The position numbers and the translations under genes are program-made. A stretch of 64,000 nucleotides of DNA. Source: Clostridia bacterium (GTDB taxonomy: Bacteria > Bacillota > Clostridia > Oscillospirales > Acutalibacteraceae). The notes below the pieces were generated by a model. That model made no database searches, was not told the origin of the DNA, and saw only the letters and a list, made by a program, of their open reading frames with translations. Location: NCBI GenBank assembly GCA_017410325.1, contig JAFQRA010000021.1:124001-188000 (forward strand), written 5' to 3'. Shown here one piece after another: positions 28,313 to 40,434 of the stretch (its first letter is position 1; every line of letters begins with the position of its first letter).

Positions 28313-28359
28313 TTTTTTGCTTTGCAACCGTGGGTTGACAGATTGCAAGCCGCTGTTTG

Positions 28360-28389
28360 TTGGTATGTAAGCTGTTGCTTTGCTATAAT
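28360..28389 (+). promoter_or_regulatory. Promoter of the XRE membrane regulator
   Basis: TTGGTA (28360-28365), 18 bases, TATAAT (28384-28389). Confidence 0.5.
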
Positions 28390-28440
28390 TGAGACAGCAC
28401 AGGGGACTCCTTTGTGAAATATCTCAACGAGGTGAACGGA

Positions 28441-29412
28441 ATGATACTGGCTGACAAGATAATAAGACTGAGAAAGAAAAACGGTTGGTCACAGGAAGAA
28501 CTCGCAGAAAAAATGAATGTTTCAAGACAGGCTGTTTCAAAATGGGAGGGCGCACAGACTGTACCTGACCTTGAAAAAATACTGCAGCTTGGTGAACTGT
28601 TTGGCGTAACAACGGATTATCTTTTAAAGGATGAAATAGAAAACGAAGAGTTTAGCGGCGTTAATAACGATTTACTTGTAAAGCGTGTTACAATGCAGGA
28701 GGCAAATGAATATATTGAACACAGAAAAAAAGCCTCTCTGCTGCTTGCGCTCGGCGTGTTCCTTTGTATTATGTCACCATCAGCGCTGATTGTGCTTTCT
28801 GCCGCTACGGTTTATTACAGCGTTTCAGAGGGCGTAGCTGTTTTGGTTGGCCTTGTTGCACTGTTGTTTATGGTGGCGGCTGCCGTTGGCATTTTCTGCT
28901 ATTGCGGCTTCAGGCATGCTGCATTTTCTTACCTGAACGGTGAGTTTGAAACCGAGTACGGCGTTGTCGGTATGGTTAAAGAAAAGGATAAGCAGTTTAC
29001 TCCCTTCGGCATAGCAAGCAATATAATTGCAACCTGCCTTTGCATTATTTCTCCTGTGCCGTTGATTGCTTCTGCTTTTTTTGGCAACGAATTTGCGGTT
29101 TGTGTTTGCGTGGCTGTTCTGCTTCTGATTGTCGGTATAGCCGTTGCGCTGTTTATCATCGGTACTGTGCGCAGCAACAGTATGCACCGTTTGCTCAAGG
29201 ATGGAGAATTTTCCGCAGAGAAAAAGAAAAGCAGCGAGAAAGGCGGAAAACTGTCAGCAGCTTATTGGCTGATTGCTACGGCGGTTTATCTGGCAACGAG
29301 CTTTATTGCAAACGCGTGGGGAAAAACGTGGATAATATGGCCGATTGCCGGTGTGCTTTTCCCGGTGGTTTATATAATTGGTAATTCTGTGTTTAATAAG
29401 AAGAATAAATAA
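28441..29412 (+). CDS. XRE-family HTH fused to a multi-pass membrane domain
   Basis: 323 residues from the ATG at 28441 (GAGGTG seven bases upstream). HTH at about 6-60: GWSQEELAEKMNVSRQAVSK then FGVTTDYLLKDE. A linker of about 40 residues is followed by about six transmembrane helices (about 95-320). Such membrane-bound HTH proteins are one-component regulators thought to sense envelope state. The HTH is close in wording to that of the lipase fusion at 37564, implying related DNA sites. It has its own promoter and terminator. Confidence 0.85.
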   Translation: MILADKIIRLRKKNGWSQEELAEKMNVSRQAVSKWEGAQTVPDLEKILQLGELFGVTTDYLLKDEIENEEFSGVNNDLLVKRVTMQEANEYIEHRKKASLLLALGVFLCIMSPSALIVLSAATVYYSVSEGVAVLVGLVALLFMVAAAVGIFCYCGFRHAAFSYLNGEFETEYGVVGMVKEKDKQFTPFGIASNIIATCLCIISPVPLIASAFFGNEFAVCVCVAVLLLIVGIAVALFIIGTVRSNSMHRLLKDGEFSAEKKKSSEKGGKLSAAYWLIATAVYLATSFIANAWGKTWIIWPIAGVLFPVVYIIGNSVFNKKNK

Positions 29413-30065: not shown

Positions 30066-30935
30066 TTATTTCTTTACAACCGGAACCCATATTTCGCTAC
30101 GGTAATCGGGGCTCCCCATATTTCCCTCGGTATAAGCCTCAATATCCATTTCGTAAGTAGGTTCATAGCCTGATGTGGGGAAAAATTCCGAAACAATCTT
30201 GTTCCACATATCCTGCATAGCTTTCGGCATAGCACCTTTACATTCAAACACTGCCCATGTTCTTGCAGGAATAGTGTTTCTTCTGAAGCCTTCGGGAATC
30301 TCTGTGTTTTCATCACATTTGGCTGCGATTGAATAATCAAAAGTCTTTGCATTTGCGGGAAGATTTCCGTAGCACACACCAAAGATGAATGTTCTGTCTG
30401 TTGTTGATTCTGTCAGTCTCTTAACAGTACCGTCCTTGTGAGAACGTGTCCAGAAGTCGGGAATACTTTTGGCATTTTCTGAATTTTCAACTGTATGTGC
30501 TTCTACCTTTTCAATAATATCAAAAGCATCTTTTTCTACAATTTTGTAGTTCATTATATTTCCTCCGCTTAATGTAATCTTCACAGTAAGGCGAGAAAAA
30601 GATTTGAGCTTTGAACCGTCCTTTTTGGCTTCTGACGGGGTTATACCGTGAAATTTTGTAAATGCTCTGGTGAAACTTTCAGGGCTTTCATAACCGTATT
30701 TCAATGCAATATCAATTACTTTTGTGTCAGAAACACACAGCTCATTGCCGGCAAGTGTAAGCCGTCTGTTTCTGATGTAGTCACCTAAAGTAACCCCACA
30801 TAAAACACCGAAAATTCTTTGAAAATAGAATTCCGAACAAGCTGCTTTTTGGGCAACAAGCTCCATATCAATTTCATCGGTAAGGTGTTCTTCAACATAG
30901 TTTATTGCATTCTGTATGCCCGTAGCCCAATCCAT
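30066..30935 (-). CDS. AraC-family regulator with GyrI-like ligand-binding domain
   Basis: 289 residues from the ATG at 30935 (GAGGTG upstream). The two AraC helix-turn-helices are N-terminal (about 5-105): EFYFQRIFGVLCGVTLGDYI and YGYESPESFTRAFTKFHG. A GyrI-like (AraC effector-binding) domain follows (about 120-289), with FWTRSHKDGTVKRL and the closing EIWVPV. This layout matches multidrug- or small-molecule-responsive regulators such as Rob/SoxS relatives with bound effectors. A paralogue lies at 39523. Confidence 0.9.
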   Translation of the reverse strand: MDWATGIQNAINYVEEHLTDEIDMELVAQKAACSEFYFQRIFGVLCGVTLGDYIRNRRLTLAGNELCVSDTKVIDIALKYGYESPESFTRAFTKFHGITPSEAKKDGSKLKSFSRLTVKITLSGGNIMNYKIVEKDAFDIIEKVEAHTVENSENAKSIPDFWTRSHKDGTVKRLTESTTDRTFIFGVCYGNLPANAKTFDYSIAAKCDENTEIPEGFRRNTIPARTWAVFECKGAMPKAMQDMWNKIVSEFFPTSGYEPTYEMDIEAYTEGNMGSPDYRSEIWVPVVKK

Positions 30936-31065
30936 ATTACTCACCTCTTTGCGTGGTTACATTATAAAGCAAAGACAATAATAATTCCTGACTTTTTATG
31001 CTCATTGTTGTATGGATATATTTTAACATACTTTATCAGCTGTTTCAATTAAGGTAATTATAATG

Positions 31066-32430: not shown

Positions 32431-33693
32431 ATGATAAAAAGGATTACGGCTTTTCTGCTTGTGTTTGCTCTTACTTTTTCTTCCCTTGCAATAAATTCCT
32501 TTGCCGCCGAGGACACGAAAACGGATTATCCGTACATATTCGTTCACGGTATGGGCGGCTGGGCACCCGGCAATGAGTTTTACGACCTTTCGCCTTACTG
32601 GGGCGGCGGCCTTTGGCTGAGTGATACCGACCTTATCAAAATCCTCAACGAAAAGGGGATAGAGGCGTATGCGCCTGCCGTCGGTCCTCTGAGCAGTGCG
32701 TGGGACAGGGCGTGTGAGCTCTACGCTCAGCTTACGGGCACGGTTGTCGATTACGGCGAGGCACACTCAAAGGCGCACGGTCACGACCGATACGGCTTTA
32801 GCTACGAGGGTAATGCGGTTATGGGCGAGCCGTGGAATATGAAGGACAAAATAAACCTCGTCGGCCATTCCTTCGGCGGCGAAACGGTAAGGCTCTTTAC
32901 CTCGCTTATGGCTTTCGGCTGTGAGGAGGAAATTGCCGCAACGGGCGAAAATACAAGCGAGCTTTTCAAGGGCGGTCACGAGGCTGTGCACGCCTGCATA
33001 ACCCTTTCAAGTCCCCACAACGGCTCTCAGGTTGCAAACTACCTCGTTGACCCGCAGTTCACAATGCTTCTGCTTGCAACGGCAATCAATGCCATCGGCG
33101 GTATCTTCGGCAACAATTTCCTCGTTTTCTCCTTCCAGCTAAGCCAGTTCGGCTTAACTCCCGCACAGGATGAGTTTCGTGCTTTACCCGATTTTAAAGG
33201 TATATATAATTTTTATAAATACAACGATAACTGCGGCTACGATATGACCCTGCGCGGTGCAAAAGAGCTTAACGAAAAAATCAAGCTTGACCCCAACGCA
33301 TATTATTATTCCTATACGACAGCCGCAACAAAGGAAGGGCTTTTCGGTCTGCAGTATCCCATAAGCTCACTCAACCCGATTTTCTATATCTCGGGTGCAA
33401 TGCTCGCCCTTACAACTGGTATGACGATTGACGGCATTAAAATCGAGGGTGACTGGGCAGTGAACGACGGAATAGTTCCGCTTGCCTCGGCACTCTATCC
33501 GGAAACGGATGCCGCAACAGCCCGCGATTACGAGGAGGCACTTTCCGCAGGAGAAAAAATCGAAACCGGCAGATGGTACTACCTCGACACTATGTACGGT
33601 ACGGACCACTTTGATTTCTGCGGAACGAAGGACTACCCCACGACCTTTGAGGACTTCTACTTCGGTATGATAGAAACCGCAAACAGCAGATAA
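32431..33693 (+). CDS. Secreted lipase, bacterial family I.5/I.6-like
   Basis: 420 residues. Signal peptide about 1-25 (SFA). The alpha/beta-hydrolase opens with YIFVHGMGGW (oxyanion strand). The nucleophile is Ser147 in VGHSFGG; candidate partners are Asp346 (NDGIVPL) and His393 (GTDHFDF). The block WDRACELYAQLTGTVVDYGE is characteristic of staphylococcal/Geobacillus-type lipases that carry a zinc site. Product: extracellular triacylglycerol or phospholipid hydrolysis. AAAGGAG precedes the ATG. It shares long blocks with the HTH-TM-lipase at 37564, so the two are paralogues. Confidence 0.88.
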   Translation: MIKRITAFLLVFALTFSSLAINSFAAEDTKTDYPYIFVHGMGGWAPGNEFYDLSPYWGGGLWLSDTDLIKILNEKGIEAYAPAVGPLSSAWDRACELYAQLTGTVVDYGEAHSKAHGHDRYGFSYEGNAVMGEPWNMKDKINLVGHSFGGETVRLFTSLMAFGCEEEIAATGENTSELFKGGHEAVHACITLSSPHNGSQVANYLVDPQFTMLLLATAINAIGGIFGNNFLVFSFQLSQFGLTPAQDEFRALPDFKGIYNFYKYNDNCGYDMTLRGAKELNEKIKLDPNAYYYSYTTAATKEGLFGLQYPISSLNPIFYISGAMLALTTGMTIDGIKIEGDWAVNDGIVPLASALYPETDAATARDYEEALSAGEKIETGRWYYLDTMYGTDHFDFCGTKDYPTTFEDFYFGMIETANSR

Positions 33694-37400: not shown

Positions 37401-37563
37401 TACCGAAACCGAAAAAAATACCAAATGTAAAGCGGACTTTACATAAAAAATTCTATATATTTTTCGGAAAATTGTAAATTCCAACTCGACTTGCTGGACT
37501 TTTTTACCCGATTGCTATACAATGAAACCACATAATGAAACTTGATTGTACAGAGGTGCAGTA

Positions 37564-39219
37564 ATGAATTTAGGAGAAAGAATATTGGAGCTGCGTAAAA
37601 AGAGCGGTCTTTCACAGGAGGAGCTTGCCGAAAAACTGGGCGTGTCACGCCAGTCTGTTTCAAAATGGGAAACCGGCAACGTAATGCCCGATATTGACAA
37701 GGCCGTTGCAATGTGCGAGCTTTTCGGCGTAACAACGGATTATCTTCTCAAGGGCAGAACAGACCACGCAAGTGCAGTATATAACGATGTTCTGGAGGAA
37801 GAGATTATAGGCAGCATTGACTCGGAAGAGGCTGAGGCTCCTGCCGAAATACACGAAGATTCAACGAATCCGGCCGATGTAAACCCGCCTTTACATAACA
37901 AAGAGCAGGACGAAAAGGCTGAAAAAGAAGAAAAAGAAGAAAAGCCTGCCTACCTTAAAGCAATAGCAGGCGTGCTTGCGGTTATTCTGCTGTTTGCAAT
38001 TATTCTGCCTATTCCGCTGGGCGGATACAAAAGACTGTGGGCAAAATTCACTGAGCCTCCCGTTGCTTATCCCTACGTGCTCGTTCACGGTATGGGCGGC
38101 TGGGGCGAGGGTGCAGGCATCAACAGCCTCTCACCCTATTGGGGCTCTGTTACCGGCAGCCTTTCAACGTACCTGCGCTCGATGGATATTGAGGTAGCGG
38201 AGGCCAACGTCGGCCCGTTTTCAAGTGCCTGGGACAGAGCGTGCGAGCTTTATGCACAGCTGACGGGCACCCGTGTTGACTACGGCGAGGCACACTCCAA
38301 AATCCACGGCCATGAGCGTTACGGAAAAACCTATGCAACAAAGCTCGTTGAAGGCTGGGGTACGGAAACTCAAGGCGGTCAGCTTCAGAAAATCAATCTC
38401 ATCGGCCACTCTTTCGGCGGCAATACAATCCGTCTTCTTACAAGCCTGCTCGAATACGGCAGCCCCGAAGAACAGCAGGCTAGCGGTGACGAGGTTTCCG
38501 AGCTTTTCACGGGCGGCAAGGGCGAATACATCAACAGTGTGACGACTCTTTGCTCACCGCATAACGGCTCAACGCTTTACTACGTTGTGGACAGATACAA
38601 CCTTATTCAGACCGCACTCGGCGTGCTGTATGCCGCAGGCGGCGTGACGGATGTGATTGAAGGCGGCCTTGTCGATTTCAATCTTGACCATTTCGGTATT
38701 CAGTCGGGTACAAGCCAAACGCTTGAACTTATCAATCAGAAATTCAGCACAGGCACGGATAACGCGTTTTACGATTTGTCTCCCGACGGTGCCGCCGAAC
38801 TCAACAAAACAATCAAAACGGTTGACAGTGTCTATTATTTTTCTTACGCCTATTGTACAACCGAAAAATCTCTTATAACAAACCATCAGCTTCCGAAAAA
38901 ATCCACACTTCTCGTGCTTATGCCCGTTGCAACGCTTATCGGCAGATATACGAACACAAGCGACTCTGCAACAATTAAAATCGACGAAAGCTGGCTTCCG
39001 AATGACGGCCTTGTGAACGTAGTTTCCGCACAGTGTCCGAGCGATGAAGAGATGTTCAGCTATACTGCCGACACTGAAATTGAGCGCGGCAGATGGTATG
39101 TGTTCCCGACACTTGAAGGCGACCACGGCACGGTAATCGGTATGAACGGCAACGTGCAGAAAACCCACAGCTTCTATACCGACCATATAGCTTTAGTTGA
39201 TGCTTTACCGAGAAACTGA
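37564..39219 (+). CDS. XRE helix-turn-helix - transmembrane - lipase fusion protein
   Basis: 551 residues from the ATG at 37564 (GAGGTG six bases upstream). Residues about 6-62 are an XRE HTH (GLSQEELAEKLGVSRQSVSK; FGVTTDYLLKG). Residues about 65-127 are an acidic then Glu/Lys-rich linker. One transmembrane helix lies at about 132-153. From about 168 to the end is a full lipase: YVLVHGMGGW, nucleophile Ser283 in IGHSFGG, candidate Asp481 (NDGLVNV) and His521 (GDHGTV). By charge the HTH is inside and the lipase outside. It shares WDRACELYAQLTGT and neighbouring blocks with the secreted lipase at 32431. No frameshift is seen, so the fusion looks genuine. A role as a one-component surface-lipid sensor is inference. 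Confidence 0.88.
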   Translation: MNLGERILELRKKSGLSQEELAEKLGVSRQSVSKWETGNVMPDIDKAVAMCELFGVTTDYLLKGRTDHASAVYNDVLEEEIIGSIDSEEAEAPAEIHEDSTNPADVNPPLHNKEQDEKAEKEEKEEKPAYLKAIAGVLAVILLFAIILPIPLGGYKRLWAKFTEPPVAYPYVLVHGMGGWGEGAGINSLSPYWGSVTGSLSTYLRSMDIEVAEANVGPFSSAWDRACELYAQLTGTRVDYGEAHSKIHGHERYGKTYATKLVEGWGTETQGGQLQKINLIGHSFGGNTIRLLTSLLEYGSPEEQQASGDEVSELFTGGKGEYINSVTTLCSPHNGSTLYYVVDRYNLIQTALGVLYAAGGVTDVIEGGLVDFNLDHFGIQSGTSQTLELINQKFSTGTDNAFYDLSPDGAAELNKTIKTVDSVYYFSYAYCTTEKSLITNHQLPKKSTLLVLMPVATLIGRYTNTSDSATIKIDESWLPNDGLVNVVSAQCPSDEEMFSYTADTEIERGRWYVFPTLEGDHGTVIGMNGNVQKTHSFYTDHIALVDALPRN

Positions 39220-39522
39220 AGCGTAAATATTAAAAAAAATGACCCGCGAGGCACCCTCCGTCAGGAAGGTGCCTCGGCCATACGGCGGACGGCCTTATTG
39301 ACCGATTCTGCCGAAAAAGTGCAATACGCAACCGGCGGTTGACAAAACTCCAACTGCGGTTGGTGGAATTTATTTAACCTTTTTGTTATCTTCGGAATAA
39401 AGGGCATAATTCAGAACTAAGCACTGATGTGACACTAAAAACCCGACTTTTCTCCGCACTGATTGTCGGGAATTCAATTTTGCCTTCTGTTAAAATAAGC
39501 ACACAGACAAGGAGGGATAACA
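39220..39522. other. Palindrome-rich gap between lipase fusion and AraC gene
   Basis: No gene. A 9-bp hairpin CGAGGCACC (39247-39255) with GGTGCCTCG (39268-39276) lacks a T run on the plus strand, but TTTTTTTT follows on the minus strand. Two related palindromes lie further on: CAACCGGCGGTTG (39329-39341) and CCAACTGCGGTTGG (39350-39363). The ribosome site AAGGAGGG for the AraC gene is just before 39523. Confidence 0.5.
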
Positions 39523-40434
39523 ATGGATTGGATTATCGGAATACAACGGGCTGTAGATTATATTGAAAATAATCTGACTGAAACGATTGATTATGAAGAA
39601 GCTGCAAAGCAGTGTTATTCTTCAAGCTATCATTTTCAGCGTGTGTTCAGTATTCTTTGCGGCTTTACTTTGGGCGAATATATCCGTAACCGCAGATTGA
39701 CGCTTGCCGGCAGAGAGCTTGCAACAACCAATGCAAAAGTAATTGACGTTGCTATGAAATACGGTTATGAAAGTCCCGACAGCTTTTCAAAAGCGTTTCA
39801 TAAGTTTCACGGAATATTACCGTCACAAGCCAAAAATAACGGCAGTAATCTGAAATCCTTTTCCCGTCTTGTACTGAAATTTTCTTTGGAAGGCGGTACA
39901 ACAATGAAATATCGTGTTGAAAACAAACCGGCACTTACGCTTATCGGCTACAAAAGGCGTTTTAACGGAACGCCGTACGATTCTTTAAGACAGCATCAGG
40001 AAGGAGATTTCTTTGCTTCAACAAGAGCGTATCAATGGATGCTTAAAGGAATGACCAACGACAAGCTTTCAGATTATTGCGTTCTTTCCGGTTTTGATGA
40101 TGACGGCTATGATTTTTACATTTCAGTCACTACGGATGATTATGAACGCAATAATTTATACAACAGCGAAGTAACGGGAATTGACTTTATGGAGAGATTC
40201 GGGTTTGAGGAAATCGTCATTCCCGAAAGGACCTATCTCATCTTTGAAACAGAAAAAACAAAAATGCCTATTCCCGAATATTTCGATATGCGTAAGCAGA
40301 TTTCGGCAGAGTGGTTGGCAAACGACGAATATCAGATAACTAACGCTCCCGAGCTTGCGGTTTATCATTGGGGAATTGTGGGCGGCTGTCCCGAACGAAC
40401 AATAGAAATATGGATTCCCATTGAGAAAAAATAA
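39523..40434 (+). CDS. AraC-family regulator with GyrI-like domain (paralogue of 30066)
   Basis: 303 residues. N-terminal HTH pair at about 1-105 (SYHFQRVFSILCGFTLGEYI; YGYESPDSFSKAFHKFHGI), then a GyrI-like effector domain (about 125-303) with PALTLIGYKRRF at its start and IEIWIPIEKK at its end. The first 110 residues are very close in wording to the regulator at 30066, while the effector domains diverge, so the two likely see different ligands but similar DNA. A strong ribosome site (AAGGAGGG) precedes the ATG. It follows the HTH-TM-lipase gene on the same strand. Confidence 0.9.
   Translation: MDWIIGIQRAVDYIENNLTETIDYEEAAKQCYSSSYHFQRVFSILCGFTLGEYIRNRRLTLAGRELATTNAKVIDVAMKYGYESPDSFSKAFHKFHGILPSQAKNNGSNLKSFSRLVLKFSLEGGTTMKYRVENKPALTLIGYKRRFNGTPYDSLRQHQEGDFFASTRAYQWMLKGMTNDKLSDYCVLSGFDDDGYDFYISVTTDDYERNNLYNSEVTGIDFMERFGFEEIVIPERTYLIFETEKTKMPIPEYFDMRKQISAEWLANDEYQITNAPELAVYHWGIVGGCPERTIEIWIPIEKK

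Follow-up and report, generated by a model that had tools for sequence, protein, structure and literature searches.

A predicted membrane-anchored XRE-lipase fusion protein and its covarying candidate operator in one family of Clostridia

In the 64,000 nucleotides of DNA from a clostridial gut bacterium analyzed here (hereafter the window), one open reading frame joins an XRE-type helix-turn-helix (HTH) domain, a membrane helix and a lipase. The fusion is conserved among related genomes, and the presence of its HTH covaries with a palindromic candidate operator in front of the gene. This covarying operator is a new result, which goes beyond the sequence-only evidence of the first-pass annotation of this DNA. 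We consider it probable that the protein is a one-component regulator that spans the membrane and has a lipase as its outer part. It would control its own gene and a regulon of very few members, activation being likelier than repression. We infer the positive sign of this regulation from promoter geometry only. As to the input, the occupancy of the lipase, its substrate or its clustering at the cell surface would alter the dimerisation of the HTH.

The fusion protein and its predicted topology

The gene and its parts are located in the window as follows.

37564..39219, forward strand: XRE-HTH / membrane helix / lipase fusion gene, a 551-aa open frame from ATG with Pfam matches to HTH_3 and Lip_C, one of 18 distinct homologous fusions
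37582..37746, forward strand: XRE HTH domain, residues 7-61 (Pfam HTH_3, E 1.3e-18, far over the cut-off)
37756..37953, forward strand: charged linker, residues 65-130 (mean pairwise identity 0.20 over the 18 fusions; pLDDT block means 26-54 for residues 61-130)
37957..38022, forward strand: single membrane helix, residues 132-153, predicted N-in/C-out (hydropathy peak 134-152; helix 130-147 in the structure model)
38068..39150, forward strand: Lip_C lipase domain, residues 169-529 (Pfam PF24708, E 6.1e-58; the solved lipases 5ah0, 5ah1, 8yye and others align)
38410..38412, forward strand: nucleophile Ser283 in GHSFGG (invariant in 18/18 fusions; pairs with GHSMGG/AHSMGG of solved lipases)
39004..39006, forward strand: Asp481 in NDGLV (invariant in 18/18 fusions; pairs with NDG of solved lipases)
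39124..39126, forward strand: His521 (invariant in 18/18 fusions; pairs with DH of solved lipases)

The first-pass annotation had read an HTH, a charged linker, one membrane helix and a complete lipase in a single frame, and this arrangement is confirmed by Pfam, by hydropathy and by the invariant triad. The polypeptide is also unsplit, as had been proposed: its 551 aa are open from the ATG, and no internal start with a ribosome-binding site was found. Codons 50-177 contain no in-frame ATG, and the linker contains no Shine-Dalgarno-like start. A separate free lipase made from an internal start was rejected for want of such a candidate.

The Pfam match and the five-helix, Cro/CI-type HTH of the structure model assign the N-terminal domain to the XRE/HTH_3 group. 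The model was built from the 18 fusion sequences (mean pLDDT 69, pTM 0.64). It places the HTH helices at residues 3-13, 18-25, 29-37, 44-54 and 58-63, with pLDDT block means of 83-94 over residues 1-60, while the lipase is of mixed confidence and the linker is disordered. The segment VSRQS[VI]SKWE (residues 27-36), which we take to be the recognition helix region, is invariant in 18/18 fusions at residues 27-31 and 33-36. An HTH followed by a membrane helix is also the layout of RodZ, a known protein, and the fusion could be a RodZ-like scaffold whose HTH binds a cytoplasmic protein instead of DNA and merely positions the lipase. The RodZ-type HTH is HTH_25, however, whereas the best Pfam HTH match of the fusion is HTH_3, HTH_25 not being among the matches up to E 0.001. 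Moreover, a DNA motif covaries with the HTH (see below), and we regard a scaffold of this kind as very improbable.

The lipase half reaches 196.8 bits with the Lip_C profile (curated cut-off 27), and solved lipases of the I.5/I.6 type align over residues 168-537 of the fusion (best E 1e-70). The profile match, the length and the Ser-Asp-His order of this predicted lipase are those of the Lip_C family. A cleavable N-terminal signal peptide is usual, though not defining, in that family. Reading of the fusion sequence revealed no N-terminal signal peptide, and the sole strong hydrophobic stretch lies near residue 132, behind the HTH.

Each of the 18 fusions has one strong hydropathy peak (mean 2.37 to 2.98 over 19 residues). 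Lysine and arginine residues are more numerous on the N-terminal than on the C-terminal flank of the helix in 17/18 fusions, and that of the MAG RGIG6297 ties (3 and 3). In the window's own protein, acidic residues outnumber basic ones on the N flank (5 D/E, 4 K/R), and the C flank has a net positive charge (3 K/R, 1 D/E), which speaks against an N-in orientation. Lipases of the Lip_C family are normally extracellular. From the bias of the flanks and this usual location, the HTH is predicted to be cytoplasmic and the lipase half to lie outside the cell.

The linker is long, disordered and fast-evolving, and it adjoins the membrane helix. Such a segment would suit regulated proteolysis, in which a cut near the membrane frees the HTH into the cytoplasm, or the lipase outside. 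With a mean pairwise identity of 0.20, however, the linker is hardly conserved, so that no shared cleavage site stands out. In addition, membrane-bound regulators can work unreleased, and a passage of PMC11856585 describes two that act while anchored. Release by proteolysis therefore seems unlikely to us.

Distribution and joint inheritance of the two halves

When 398 genomes from the same Clostridia family were searched at the protein level, 108 gave matches, with full or near-full fusions in the window's genus and several others; three candidates were scored per genome, and the fusion counts are lower bounds. The fusion was recovered in 16 further genomes of the family and in RGIG6297. Two of the 16 genomes share contigs and proteins with the gut MAGs RGIG6257 and RGIG1745. 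The search for chains made of XRE and lipase, which the first-pass annotation had suggested, thus returned 18 distinct fusions from six genus groups (g1, g63, g16, g133, g4 and g43) of one Clostridia family. The same annotation had envisaged that a sequencing join might have brought the two halves together, and recurrence in 16 other genomes and RGIG6297 excludes this. We rejected an artefact of assembly or frame on the same grounds and on those of co-inheritance over a whole clade (see below), and give it next to no probability.

The first 76 fetched loci yielded 64 distinct lipase frames, of which 18 have the HTH, a proportion that is not a prevalence because the loci were best matches and some had been picked for a long frame. 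The 46 HTH-less frames include one gene that was read twice in overlapping loci. In the tree of the lipase domain, all 18 HTH-lipases fall inside one clade of 24 members (support 95/91), and the HTH label needs 4 changes, compared with 15.9 when labels are shuffled. One gain and three losses of the HTH would be the simplest reading, the count of changes being unable to separate gain from loss. Distances between HTHs are correlated with those between lipases (Mantel r 0.84, a value not reached in any of 5000 permutations), and both halves have therefore descended together. In comparisons with the five nearest orthologues, dN/dS was 0.02-0.15 for the HTH and 0.04-0.12 for the lipase; for the linker it was 0.23-0.49 in the three orthologues where it was computable. 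On this measure, the HTH is under strong purifying selection.

To delimit the distribution, samples of the order and of the class were searched. The order sample (394 genomes) had five genomes matched at E 1e-40, all from the same family. The class sample (391 genomes) also had five, of which four, besides the window's own, belong to other families. Five of the seven loci from these four genomes were read, at least one from each genome, and by eye their N-terminal parts carry no HTH. Within these order and class samples, the fusion appears in one Clostridia family only, and it may also occur elsewhere. One locus from another family of the class (L222, G861) encodes a long hydrophobic N-terminal part, apparently with several membrane helices (by eye), in front of a Lip_C-like lipase. 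In the window itself, two AraC-type regulators with GyrI-like/Cass2 effector domains (30066-30944 and 39523-40434) flank the lipase pair.

Candidate operators, promoter geometry and putative targets

Four elements were located around and within the start of the fusion gene.

37426..37443, palindromic, no strand: site 1, candidate operator TGTAAAGCGGACTTTACA (exact form at 13/18 fusions and 0/46 HTH-less lipase frames)
37479..37496, forward strand: site 2, degenerate candidate operator TTCCAACTCGACTTGCTG (TTG 27 bp ahead of the -10 hexamer; the joint score in this gene is not significant by itself, and the assignment relies on position and on the related promoters)
37518..37523, forward strand: -10 box TACAAT (from joint promoter scoring with site 2)
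37878..37895, palindromic, no strand: second exact palindrome TGTAAACCCGCCTTTACA, within the linker coding sequence (conserved in G292 and RGIG6297 but not in G230, G148 or G342)

The exact palindrome TGTAAA-N6-TTTACA was found upstream of 13 of the 18 fusions and of none of the 46 HTH-less frames (Fisher 6.5e-10), whose best copy has 2 mismatches. Within the lipase clade, 13/18 fusions and 0/6 HTH-less members have it (p 0.003); these Fisher p-values overstate independence because the genomes are related. The upstream scan ran from -250 to +90 relative to the most upstream start codon, and shuffles preserved single-base content only. Five fusions have no exact palindrome in that range: G313 and G177 (2 mismatches), G382 (3), and G340 and G162 (4). 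An exact copy does exist in G162, 264 bp upstream and just beyond the scanned range, and was hence counted as a miss. The distance of 285 bp between the aligned start and the exact palindrome in G148 counts against our preferred reading.

We also counted the palindrome genome-wide. The window's genome has three exact copies: at the fusion promoter, in the linker coding sequence and on another contig. The 16 other fusion genomes have 27 (0-5 per genome), compared with 13 for the reversed pattern. Thirteen of these 27 are located at fusion promoters, and in 7 of the 16 genomes the fusion-promoter copy is the only one. Seventeen chosen relatives in which no fusion was seen have 6 exact palindromes and 6 of the reversed pattern, i.e. 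no excess. Nine of the 27 copies lie neither at fusions nor at genes of the MGSS type (described below), which counts against the preferred reading. Two of these nine precede a gene next to the fusion (292 aa in G148, 300 aa in G313) and one precedes a 60-aa frame in G145; the remaining ones may be due to chance. The 60-aa frame, under its TGTAAA candidate operator, was noted as a short gene of its own (L169:3306-3488), as was a 65-aa frame directly 3' of the fusion gene in G222 (L093:6229-6426). A good-looking TGTAAACTCCGGTTTACA site was seen in G207 (L229, G207:C135:3672-3689), a genome whose same-clade lipase has no HTH; this site is perhaps a relic or the site of another binder.

Could another protein bind these sites? 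Among HTHs of proteins that have no lipase, the nearest share 58-66% identity with that of the fusion, and they are encoded in several of these genomes. A census of XRE proteins covered 30 of 45 matches. Those XRE membrane proteins that were read have several membrane helices, no lipase, and two-site promoters with GCAAC-type palindromes. Such a pair of sites may be common to the XRE membrane proteins of this Clostridia family, and as these other proteins have a similar layout, it is by itself insufficient to identify the binder. A different XRE protein might then occupy the operators, the fusion HTH being an inherited membrane-anchoring module. However, the sites of these proteins are of the GCAAC type, and among the six nearest non-lipase HTH genes none coincides with an exact TGTAAA site. 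The exact TGTAAA palindrome is absent from same-clade lipases without HTH and shows no excess in the 17 fusion-less genomes, and a dN/dS of 0.02-0.15 for the HTH also argues against a mere anchoring module. Because the TGTAAA sequence tracks the lipase fusion while other XRE proteins use GCAAC, the evidence points to the fusion's own HTH, which we infer to bind the TGTAAA sites. Binding by another XRE protein is, in our view, quite unlikely.

It had also been suggested that the XRE gene at 28441 and the lipase gene at 32431 share an operator with the fusion gene, and this did not hold. The best copy at that lipase has 4 mismatches. The XRE membrane-protein gene (28414-29412, starting at GTG 28414 or ATG 28441) is preceded by a TATAAT box and a palindrome of the GCAAC type (28324-28400). 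A GCAAC-type operator pair, CAACCGGCGGTTGACAAAACTCCAACTGCGGTTGGTGGA, is also present 3' of the fusion gene (39329-39367), in front of the AraC/Cass2 gene of 39523-40434. This pair resembles the promoters of XRE membrane proteins in relatives, and no XRE gene directly follows it. The membrane-bound one-component regulator of the first-pass annotation stands as the best reading, and the operator evidence suggests DNA binding. The annotation further supposed that the lipase may sense or cut lipid and relay its state through the helix, or that cleavage may free the HTH.

Downstream of the palindrome and ahead of the -10 box lies site 2, with the consensus TGTAAA-N6-TTG-N-TT. Site 2 and the -10 box were scored jointly on 25 promoters (18 fusions, 5 MGSS and 2 others). 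With a gap of 27 bp, 17/25 promoters score at least 14 of 17, compared with 0-6/25 for fifteen other gaps, the consensus having been derived from the same promoters on which it was tested. These 17 comprise 13/18 fusions and 4/7 of the others, and none of the 46 HTH-less frames reaches this score. Against the preferred reading, 8/25 promoters score below 14. Site 2 is weak in the window's gene and in its two nearest orthologues (12 of 17), with shuffle p-values of 0.16-0.23 (0.18 for the window's gene) from shuffles that again preserve single-base content only. In G230, the best-scoring place for site 2 is the palindrome itself.

Assuming the usual placement of the -10 box, site 2 is centred near -42.5 and overlaps the -35 region. 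Class II activators of the lambda CI kind have an operator near -42, and such a position is predicted here, though weakly for the gene in the window. By our reading, the -35 hexamers match at a mediocre 3 to 5 of 6 positions, compared with 5-6 of 6 for the -10 boxes of well-scoring promoters, the -10 match having itself been part of the score. The same protein and sites could also serve an autorepressor, in which occupancy of site 2 blocks the -35 region and keeps the number of membrane lipases constant. Many small XRE proteins are repressors, and the overlap of site 2 with the -35 region would suit one. The palindrome of G291 C1 is located behind the -10 box, a place that suits a repressor better. 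An autorepressor, however, needs no single fixed distance between site 2 and the -10 box, yet the gap of 27 alone stands out, and the contrast between mediocre -35 hexamers and good -10 boxes also speaks against it. The fixed gap and the mediocre -35 boxes together fit positive autoregulation of the lambda CI kind better than simple repression. Autorepression is the rival that carries the most weight, and we hold it to be possible, if doubtful.

Some candidate sites precede genes other than the fusion. In the window's genome, an exact palindrome (C27:23174) lies 127 bp upstream of a gene for a 247-residue protein, with the same two-site layout. This protein (L145:5308-6048 on C27) has an N-terminal hydrophobic helix, a predicted beta-rich part and weak Ig-like matches, and no family match in Pfam. 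We gave the label MGSS to the small family of membrane-anchored proteins to which it belongs. Homologues are present in 7/398 genomes of the Clostridia family, six with the fusion plus G324 (co-occurrence p 1.6e-8, which overstates independence, the genomes being related). In G324, the same-clade lipase (L063) has no HTH and exact palindromes are absent genome-wide; in G222, there is none outside the fusion promoter. These two genomes were judged solely by counts of exact sites. Among the 15 MGSS loci, L210 was left out, L208 (G324) was misframed, and L205 and L211 were read from larger loci. In G148, exact palindromes precede two MGSS genes. In G291, one MGSS gene has such a palindrome in front of it, and a further exact copy lies about 460 bp before another, seemingly with a short frame between (by eye). 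Copies with 1 or 2 mismatches precede one more MGSS gene each in G292, G291 and G148. The two-site layout recurs at several MGSS genes. In G287, the fusion gene is followed after about 300 bp by the first of two MGSS genes. These associations suggest that the fusion HTH also controls MGSS genes where they are present, a very small regulon with perhaps a few other members.

According to the preferred reading of a transmembrane activator, a dimer of the cytoplasmic XRE domain, held at the membrane, would bind site 1 (TGTAAA-N6-TTTACA) upstream of its own promoter. It would then bind the degenerate site 2 near -42.5, overlapping the -35 region, and recruit polymerase to its own promoter and to those of the MGSS genes. 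The outer lipase would supply the input through its substrate, its product or clustering. More tentatively, and with considerable doubt on our part, the protein could be a surface enzyme that reports its own work. Its lipase ectodomain would act through one helix on a lambda-CI-like cooperative, possibly bistable switch, looping through the intragenic operator could hold the gene at the membrane, and the fusion would belong to a larger class of XRE membrane proteins of this Clostridia family with two-site promoters centred near -42.5.

Comparison with known systems and significance

Several known systems share parts of this design. Transmembrane transcription regulators (TTRs) such as CadC, ToxR, TcpP, ChiS and TfoS unite a DNA-binding domain and a membrane region in a single polypeptide, to which a domain on the outside is often added. 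The fusion likewise has a recognisable DNA-binding domain (HTH_3, E 1.3e-18) and, by hydropathy peak and structure model, at least one transmembrane region. It differs in that its outer domain is a complete predicted lipase with an intact triad. PMC10269533 counts, in its main text, 50,302 TTRs, about 56% of them single-pass, with the helix-turn-helix as the commonest DNA-binding domain, and neither "lipase" nor "hydrolase" is mentioned in this main text. Among the matches listed from the open-access literature, none describes an XRE-lipase fusion.

Lipases of families I.5 (Geobacillus) and I.6 (Staphylococcus), which belong to Pfam Lip_C, share profile, triad and length with the lipase half. 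They are secreted enzymes with signal peptides, whereas the fusion is anchored through its membrane helix and bears an HTH. No HTH match was obtained for any of the 46 other lipase frames. The regulatory half recalls lambda CI at PRM, with a Cro/CI-type HTH and paired operators, one of them near -42 of its own promoter. Lambda OR2 is centred at -42 of PRM. A passage of PMC3708714 states that CI bound at OR1/OR2 activates its own promoter PRM, whose -35 sequence is TAGATA. This likeness is an analogy: CI is a soluble phage protein, whereas the fusion HTH belongs to a membrane protein with an enzyme, and activation by it is presumed. The trigger enzymes PutA and BirA act in the cytoplasm. Each is an enzyme and a DNA-binding regulator in one protein, as set out in a passage of PMC6978683, whereas the catalytic part of the fusion is predicted to lie across the membrane.

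Membrane-bound transcription factors are common, yet the sensed input of most of them is obscure. In the fusion, the outer half belongs to an enzyme family that is well studied and has solved structures, so that the input can be guessed and tested. The candidate operator, the promoter geometry and the small set of targets are predicted to the base, and the transfer of an outside state to DNA through a single helix is thereby open to direct test. If lipase activity is indeed the signal, the trigger-enzyme idea would be extended across the membrane.
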